Origin: Kiritimatiellia bacterium
GTDB taxonomy: Bacteria; Verrucomicrobiota; Kiritimatiellia; RFP12; UBA1067
Assembly (NCBI GenBank): GCA_018399555.1
Contig: JAGYOL010000011.1
Location: forward strand, 1 to 34,726
Length of the DNA: 34,726 nt
Reading direction: 5' to 3'
The notes beneath the pieces are model-generated. The model ran no database searches. It was not told the origin of the DNA and saw only the letters and a program-made list of their open reading frames with translations. How positions within the stretch are numbered: the first letter of the stretch is position 1; every line of letters begins with the position of its first letter. The position numbers and the translations under genes were made by a program. Below, piece after piece: positions 7,548 to 10,230 of this stretch.

Positions 7548-8528
7548 ATGACAAAAAAGGTTCTGATAACAGGTGGTGCCGGTTTCATCGGCTCTCACCT
7601 AGCTAAAATGCTGCTTGCAAAAGAATACGAAGTTACGGTGATGGACAATCTTTTCACCGGCACCAAGACCAATATATATGAGATGCTCGACAATCACCGT
7701 TTCACCTTCATCCTGCACGATGTGACGCAACCCTTCTGGGGTCAGTTTGATCTCATCTACAACCTGGCCTGTCCGGCTTCGCCGATTCATTATCAACGCA
7801 ATCCCGTGGAAACCATCAAAACCTCCCTGCTGGGAATGATGAATGTGCTGGAGCTGGCCCTTAAAACCAAAGCGCGGGTCTTTCACACCTCAACCTCCGA
7901 GATATACGGCGATCCTGAAGTTCATCCGCAACCCGAAAGTTACTGGGGCAATGTGAACACGATCGGAACACGCAGTTGTTACGATGAGGGCAAACGCGCA
8001 GCTGAGACACTCTGCGCCGATTATCTACGCGAATACAATGTCGATGTGCGCATGATCCGTATCTTTAACACCTACGGCCCCAACATGCACCCAAAAGACG
8101 GACGCGTGATCAGTAATTTCATCATGCAGGCCCTGCAGAACCGTGATCTGACCATCTATGGCGACGGCTCTCAGACCCGCAGCTTTCAGTATGTGACCGA
8201 TCTGACCGAAGCGATGGTTGCATTCATGGATCTGGAAAAAAGAACCATGATGGAGTTCTTTAAATCCAGAGGCATGGATATTCCGATCCTGAATGTCGGC
8301 AACCCCGAAGAGTTCACCATCAAACAGCTGGCCGAAGAGACCCTCAGGCAGATACCGGAGAGTAAAAGCTCGATCATATATCAAACCCTGCCGAAAGACG
8401 ATCCACGGCGCCGTAAGCCCGATATCACGCTGGTCAACGATCTGCTTGGCTGGAAACCGGCGGTGCCGCTGCAGGAAGGTATTAAAAACGCGATCGCCTA
8501 TTTCAAAGGCACAAATTTGCGCTTGTGA
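7548..8528 (+). CDS. uxs: UDP-glucuronate decarboxylase (UDP-xylose synthase), extended SDR family
   Basis: A 326-residue extended short-chain dehydrogenase. The NAD-binding motif GGAGFIGSHL lies at residues 8-17. The segment NLACPASPIHYQRNPVETIKTS, the TSTSEIYGDP box and the catalytic YDEGKRAAE (YxxxK) match UDP-glucuronate decarboxylases, which make UDP-xylose for surface polysaccharides via a 4-keto intermediate. Later motifs FNTYGPNMHPKDGRVISNF and GDGSQTRSFQYVTDL agree. An AAAGGA site precedes ATG 7548. It could in principle be a related dehydratase or epimerase, but the CPASPIHYQ stretch favours Uxs. Confidence 0.9.
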   Translation: MTKKVLITGGAGFIGSHLAKMLLAKEYEVTVMDNLFTGTKTNIYEMLDNHRFTFILHDVTQPFWGQFDLIYNLACPASPIHYQRNPVETIKTSLLGMMNVLELALKTKARVFHTSTSEIYGDPEVHPQPESYWGNVNTIGTRSCYDEGKRAAETLCADYLREYNVDVRMIRIFNTYGPNMHPKDGRVISNFIMQALQNRDLTIYGDGSQTRSFQYVTDLTEAMVAFMDLEKRTMMEFFKSRGMDIPILNVGNPEEFTIKQLAEETLRQIPESKSSIIYQTLPKDDPRRRKPDITLVNDLLGWKPAVPLQEGIKNAIAYFKGTNLRL

Positions 8529-8572
8529 AAGCGGTGCGTAAAGTTTAACATACGCTCCACATATCTGTTCTG

Positions 8573-8660
8573 AGGCGGAGGATTTTTCTGACCCGAGGAA
8601 AGAGCTGGTTGAATCGACAACTCTGACCGGTGCGCAGTGTGCGCACTCCATCTTCTGCCT
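8573..8660 (+). promoter_or_regulatory. Predicted structured 5' leader of the HydG-like gene
   Basis: Three helices can be drawn by hand. P1 pairs 8573-8583 (AGGCGGAGGAT) with 8650-8660 (ATCTTCTGCCT): 11 continuous pairs, two of them G-U. P2 is a hairpin at 8601-8624 (AGA and GTTG paired with CAAC and TCT across an AATCGA loop, with a small bulge). P3 is a perfect 7-bp hairpin 8630-8646 (GTGCGCA-GTG-TGCGCAC). Together they form a closed three-way junction ending 28 nt before the start codon. The layout resembles a cis-regulatory RNA, but no known riboswitch consensus fits. Confidence 0.45.
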
Positions 8661-8688
8661 ATGAAACACGCAACCGCAAGGAAGAACG

Positions 8689-10230
8689 ATGGAAGCTGTC
8701 ACAACTAAAGCACCGCATCTGAGAAAATTTTCTAGCGCGTCCGACTACACCCGCAACTTCATCATCCGCGACGAGGTTGATCCCTATCTACGTTCAGGAC
8801 ACTTTATCGATGAAGCTCTGATCAACGAGCAGCTCGCCCGAGCGGCAGCGGCACACAATCCTGATGATCCGGTACGGCTACGCGAAATTCTGGCGAAATC
8901 AAAAAAGATCGAAACACTCCTGCCAGAAGAGGTTGCCGTTTTGATGCACATCACTGACCCGCAGTTGCTGGCGGAGATGGCTGAAACCGCACTGGCTATC
9001 AAAAAAGCGGTATATGACAACCGTGTGGTGATGTTCGCCCCGCTTTATTTAAGCAATCTGTGTGTTAACAACTGTGAGTATTGCGGTTTTAAATCCAGCA
9101 ACACCGGTCAGCGTCGCCGCATGCTCTCAATGTCTGAGGTTGAGGAAGAGATCAAGATACTGGCGGGTAAGATCGGCCACAAACGTCTGATCGCCGTCTA
9201 CGGCGAACACCCGACAACCTCGACCGAGTACATCGCTGAAACCATCCGCACCACCTATAAAATGGATATCAAGGCCCCCAATGGTGCACCGGTCGGAATT
9301 CGCCGAATCAATGTGAATGCCGCCCCCCTGCCAATCGATGACCTGCGTGTACTCAAAGAGGTCGGCATCGGCACATTTCAGGTGTTTCAGGAGACCTACC
9401 ATCGTCCAACCTATGAAAAACTGCATCCCCACGGCACTGTCAAGGGCGATTACAACTGGCGCACGACCGCATTTCACCGGGCGATGGAGGCCGGAGTCGA
9501 TGATGTCGGCATGGGTGTTCTGTTCGGCCTTTATGACTGGAAATTCGAAATGATGGCCTCTATTTATCATGCCCGTGAACTCGAAGACAAATTCAAGGTC
9601 GGGCCGCACACCATCTCGTTCCCGCGGCTGGAACCGGCTAGCGGCACGGATCTGCCTTCAAAATCACCCTATCTGATTGATGACGATACCTTCCTGCGCA
9701 TCGTCATGATCACCCGGCTCTCGGTACCCTACACCGGTATGATTGTCACCTGCCGCGAATCACCGGAATCACGCAACACCTGCATAAAATATGGTATCAC
9801 GCAGATGGATGCCGGCAGCAACATCGCCCTGGGCGGCTACAGTGAGTACGCCCGTAAAAGCAACCAGGATGAGGATCGTCAGCAGTTTATGCTCTCAGAC
9901 ACCCGCTCCCTCGAAGAGATGATCGCCTATCTGGCCGATCAGGGCATCATAACCTCATTCTGCACAGCCGGCTACCGCTGCGGACGCACTGGCGGGTGTA
10001 TCATGGATGCGTTAAAAACCGGCAAAGAGGGAAAATTCTGTAAAATCAACGCAGTTCTGACCTTCCGCGAATGGCTCGACGATTTCGCCTCGAATGAGAC
10101 AAAACAGATCTGTGAACCGGTACTTCAAAAGGAACTTGAGGGCATCCGCGCGAATCTTCCCAAATTCTACCCGACCGTCAAAGAGCATTACGATCGTATC
10201 TGCGCCGGTGAGCGTGACCTCTTTTTCTGA
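8689..10230 (+). CDS. HydG-like radical SAM protein with altered C-terminal cluster motif
   Basis: A 513-residue radical SAM protein most like HydG, the tyrosine lyase that supplies the Fe(CO)2(CN) unit for the [FeFe]-hydrogenase active site. The radical SAM cluster motif is C125-x3-C129-x2-C132 followed by GF. The C-terminal region has the HydG-type CTAxYRxGRTG block. The canonical auxiliary-cluster motif CX2CX22C is altered: C425 and C451 are kept, but the middle Cys is Gly428 (CTAGYRCGRTGGC). Two extra cysteines (431 and 437) lie close by. An N-terminal extension of about 30 residues precedes the usual start region. AAGGAAG lies before ATG 8689. No hydE, hydF or hydrogenase gene is in the window. 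Either a diverged HydG or a paralogue with another product is possible. Confidence 0.85.
   Translation: MEAVTTKAPHLRKFSSASDYTRNFIIRDEVDPYLRSGHFIDEALINEQLARAAAAHNPDDPVRLREILAKSKKIETLLPEEVAVLMHITDPQLLAEMAETALAIKKAVYDNRVVMFAPLYLSNLCVNNCEYCGFKSSNTGQRRRMLSMSEVEEEIKILAGKIGHKRLIAVYGEHPTTSTEYIAETIRTTYKMDIKAPNGAPVGIRRINVNAAPLPIDDLRVLKEVGIGTFQVFQETYHRPTYEKLHPHGTVKGDYNWRTTAFHRAMEAGVDDVGMGVLFGLYDWKFEMMASIYHARELEDKFKVGPHTISFPRLEPASGTDLPSKSPYLIDDDTFLRIVMITRLSVPYTGMIVTCRESPESRNTCIKYGITQMDAGSNIALGGYSEYARKSNQDEDRQQFMLSDTRSLEEMIAYLADQGIITSFCTAGYRCGRTGGCIMDALKTGKEGKFCKINAVLTFREWLDDFASNETKQICEPVLQKELEGIRANLPKFYPTVKEHYDRICAGERDLFF

Follow-up and report, generated by a model that had tools for sequence, protein, structure and literature searches.

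Can a HydG that has glycine in place of the middle cysteine of its auxiliary-cluster motif still act in hydrogenase maturation? The question is raised by a gene in a 34,726-nucleotide stretch of DNA, referred to here as the window. A first-pass annotation, made from the sequence alone, had noted the glycine and left two readings: the missing ligand is supplied by C431 or C437, or the protein performs different tyrosine-derived chemistry. We compared the protein with HydG structures and relatives, and surveyed the genes that accompany it in its own and other genomes.

Family assignment and predicted fold

The protein scored 450.6 bits against the HydG profile TIGR03955, over the curated cut-off of 312.15, and matched T. 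italicus HydG (4WCX) over its full length (phmmer E 3e-131). Its score against the ThiH profile was 263.5 bits, under the cut-off of 380, and it has the C-terminal auxiliary-cluster domain with three cysteines (C425, C431 and C451), arguing against assignment as a ThiH. Its cysteine spacing is CX5CX19C and not the exact CX2CX22C seen in crystal structures of HydG. We take CX2CX22C as a mark of the canonical form and not of the whole HydG family, because a CX5CX19C variant is reported as HydG in PMC9431212.

The AlphaFold model of the window HydG (mean pLDDT 92.9) matched 4WCX over the full length, with a TM score of 0.96 by target length and 46% identity (Foldseek), and the two proteins share the radical SAM motif and the outer two auxiliary cysteines. 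The Carboxydothermus hydrogenoformans HydG (4RTB) has the same fold and domain plan but differs in its motif, which is CX2CX22C. ThiH (7PD1) has a related tyrosine lyase fold, and its sequence match stops at window residue 420, before the auxiliary-cluster region. In the model, residues 424–434 form a loop that is followed by a helix (435–444); confidence is lower around the motif, with pLDDT 76–78 over residues 421–440.

The middle cysteine of the auxiliary-cluster motif

Read codon by codon, the C-terminal region runs C425-T-A-G428-Y-R-C431-GRTGG-C437-...-C451 (Table 1). In the alignment with 4WCX, SFCTAGYRCGRTGGCIMDALKTGKEGKFC of the window HydG stands opposite SYCTACYRMGRTGDRFMSFAKSGQIHNFC of T. 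italicus HydG, which places Gly428 opposite the middle cysteine of CX2CX22C and C431 opposite a methionine. Codons and alignment bear out the glycine noted at first pass, and the radical SAM motif is intact, as had also been stated. Compared with CX2CX22C, the CX5CX19C motif keeps the outer spacing and has its middle cysteine three residues further along; the cysteine appears to have been shifted rather than lost, and no function appears to have gone with it.

Table 1 Features of hydG in the window. Conservation counts are from an alignment of 59 full-length CX5CX19C HydGs.
Feature	Position	Strand	Evidence
hydG, radical SAM tyrosine lyase and [FeFe]-hydrogenase H-cluster maturase, 513 aa	8689..10230	+	TIGR03955, 4WCX, AlphaFold fold match
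Radical SAM CX3CX2C motif (C125, C129, C132)	9061..9084	+	Direct reading; intact; invariant in 59/59 relatives
His294	9568..9570	+	Invariant in 59/59; aligned with 4WCX His; His also in ThiH rows, so not diagnostic
C425, first auxiliary-cluster Cys, codon TGC	9961..9963	+	Invariant in variant and canonical HydG
G428, codon GGC, site of missing canonical middle Cys	9970..9972	+	Gly in 59/59 variant HydGs
C431, codon TGC, proposed replacement ligand (CX5CX19C)	9979..9981	+	Cys in 59/59 variant HydGs
C437, codon TGT, lineage-specific Cys, not a conserved ligand	9997..9999	+	Cys in 22/59
C451, codon TGT, last auxiliary-cluster Cys	10039..10041	+	Invariant

The invariant positions of the 59-member alignment include C125, C129, C132, H294, C425, G428, C431 and C451. 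The histidine of T. italicus HydG that aligns with His294 is a ligand of the dangler iron. Position 431 is L, M, E, K or A in canonical HydGs. The two replacement ligands offered at first pass thus fared differently: C431 is kept by every subtype member, and on this conservation it is likely to be the third ligand of the auxiliary cluster, whereas C437 is rejected, with K, R, H, Y, T, N or S at that position in 37 of the 59 proteins. An arrangement in which C437 takes the place of C431, or in which four cysteines bind the cluster and leave no open site, could appeal to the presence of C437 in the window HydG and its close relatives; given a cysteine there in only 22 of the 59 members, we regard it as very improbable. 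A four-cysteine motif, CX5CX5CX13C, which the close relatives had suggested first, was dropped after a wider scan.

Hydrogenase partners in the source genome

The window contains one hydG, downstream of a nucleotide-sugar epimerase/decarboxylase-like gene (7548–10230 for the pair). Its list of open reading frames contains no hydE, hydF or hydrogenase gene, in agreement with the annotation; all three lie on other contigs of the same genome (2.86 Mb, 82% complete), as expected for a HydG. Both hydF (contig C46, 564 bits) and hydE (contig C63, 286 bits) score above their cut-offs, and there are two [FeFe]-hydrogenase genes, on contigs C220 and C264. One of these hydrogenases has the H-cluster motifs TSCCPAW, MPCTAKKFE and EVMACRGGC; in the other, which lies at a contig end, TSCSPGW and MPCTAKKFE alone were matched. 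The whole-genome check proposed at first pass thus recovered hydE, hydF and hydA, and no second HydG was found in this 82% complete assembly, the other two matches being a ThiH-like protein and HydE.

Distribution of the CX5CX19C subtype

Among the nearest genomes, CTAGYRCGRTG is found in 21 of 26 HydGs with the window protein counted (20 of 25 without it), and the canonical CT[AS]CYR in 5. Scanning the GTDB species collection for CxxGYRCGRTG returned at least 118 stretches, of which at least 114 among the matches listed encode HydG orthologues; four pattern matches (L086, L105, L111 and L141) are not HydG. The matches listed come from Kiritimatiellae, Lentisphaerae, Verrucomicrobia, Omnitrophota, Elusimicrobia, Spirochaetes, Bacteroidia, Planctomycetes, Thermodesulfobacteriota, Bacillota and others, and the carriers include one Archaeoglobaceae metagenome-assembled genome (MAG). 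The contig belongs to a draft genome, and GGC differs from TGC by one base, which could have pointed to a misread or misassembled codon 428. The same glycine and C431 recur in more than 100 independent genomes, including the complete Desulfosarcina widdelii chromosome, and the error explanation, to which we give practically no weight, is refuted.

CX5CX19C HydG is a large, widespread and already reported subtype. In PMC9431212, a survey of Clostridium acetogens that points to 2012 work on HydG motif variability, the C. autoethanogenum HydG CLAU_RS03260 is described with a C-terminal C-x(5)-C-x(19)-C that is supposed to bind the Fe-S cluster. This is the motif of the window HydG in another organism; the sections consulted report the one protein and do not map its distribution. 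The variant is therefore in print, and its breadth was not found in the open literature searched, nor was biochemistry on the CX5CX19C subtype. Syntrophomonas maturases have been used for expression in E. coli (PMC7311640).

Phylogeny

A quick HydG tree, built without the motif columns and including 50 variant HydGs, placed 48 of the 50 in one supported group and two Bacillota members beside a canonical group, implying two state changes. These two (L122:1-1359 and L118:1-654) have canonical-like sequence after GRTG (FM...C.PNA); either the variant was gained a second time, or their canonical sister group reverted. A single variant clade was not rejected by the AU test (p 0.32). The variant may thus have had one origin or more than one.

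Gene context and co-occurrence

In the complete chromosome of D. widdelii, the variant is the sole HydG and lies close to hydE, hydA and hydF. The variant hydG is clustered with hydE, hydF and hydA in a genome of the same order as the source (G024), and in Sphaerochaeta halotolerans hydF and hydE adjoin it. Across the matches listed, at least one of hydE, hydF and hydA is near the variant hydG at 62 of 114 loci (fetched stretches of up to 8 kb). At two loci (L080:1588-2862 and L081:1621-2895), the HydF-like neighbours share only some 30% identity with the HydF queries, compared with 40–60% at most other loci.

No second HydG was found in 37 of the 39 named carrier genomes among the matches listed, a count that includes one genome (G066) with a single HydG split over two contigs. 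A canonical HydG accompanies the variant only in Peptoclostridium litorale and one Bacteroidales MAG. In P. litorale (L165:6560-8140, L164:8208-9620), the canonical gene sits in a hydE-hydG-hydF operon and the CX5CX19C form is on another contig, where the 15 kb fetched contain no hydE, hydF or hydA. Among the matches listed, a PF02906 hydrogenase is present in 34 of the 39 named carriers. The five genomes without a PF02906 match are all MAGs (G031, G036, G050, G058 and G070; loci L046, L054, L089, L104 and L124), and may be incomplete or make another use of the synthon; one of them, Thermodesulfobacterium geofontis (G050, L089), has hydG, hydF and hydE together.

Within the source phylum, 24 of 195 genomes have the variant pattern, 71 the canonical one and none both, compared with 8.7 co-occurrences expected by chance (hypergeometric P 8e-6, which takes no account of the relatedness of the genomes and serves more to describe than to test). 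This mutual exclusion is the pattern expected if both forms do the same job.

These observations bear on the possibility that the auxiliary cluster has been lost and that the protein makes a different product from tyrosine, or no more than free CO and cyanide. In favour of this, the middle cysteine known from characterised HydGs is missing, and PMC9431212 states that canonical HydG cannot support maturation without its C-terminal cluster. However, three cysteines are still invariant, the variant hydG is clustered with hydE, hydF and hydA, and it excludes the canonical form. C. autoethanogenum, moreover, pairs a CX5CX19C HydG (PMC9431212) with a characterised electron-bifurcating [FeFe]-hydrogenase, HytA-E (PMC5861303), and thus has the same change together with an active enzyme, a case that the first-pass annotation had named as evidence against its own proposal. 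Loss of the cluster is hardly credible on this evidence. The different chemistry proposed at first pass is likewise unsupported: many genomes encode the variant beside hydE, hydF and hydA, most carriers have no other HydG, and no genome of the phylum sample has both forms.

Proposed function and implications

The protein is very probably a normal HydG of a known subtype, in which C425, C431 and C451 hold the auxiliary cluster, C437 is not a ligand and the usual Fe(CO)2(CN) unit is the product. In the mechanism we propose, the gene would encode the HydG of its genome; the radical SAM cluster would cleave tyrosine, and the Fe(CO)2(CN) unit of the H-cluster would be built on the C-terminal auxiliary [4Fe-4S] cluster, whose middle ligand would have slid by three residues. 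We infer iron binding by C431, retention of the dangler iron and an unchanged product. Points that weigh against this reading are the five MAG carriers lacking a PF02906 match, the P. litorale variant located away from its maturase operon, the lower model confidence around the motif and the 82% completeness of the source genome. A further possibility, which we consider unlikely, is that the slid ligand alters the geometry or redox properties of the auxiliary cluster, such that the dangler iron is handled differently; the synthon could then be assembled in either of two functional ways, with repeated gains or reversals in evolution.

In itself, the window gene appears to be an unremarkable hydrogenase maturase. 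Its wider relevance is that the ligand-shifted HydG is the form used by a wide range of anaerobes, whereas the textbook chemistry rests on CX2CX22C enzymes. Annotation or mutagenesis arguments that demand CX2CX22C would wrongly call CX5CX19C genes broken, and the motif shift is a naturally occurring probe of how strictly cluster position is constrained.
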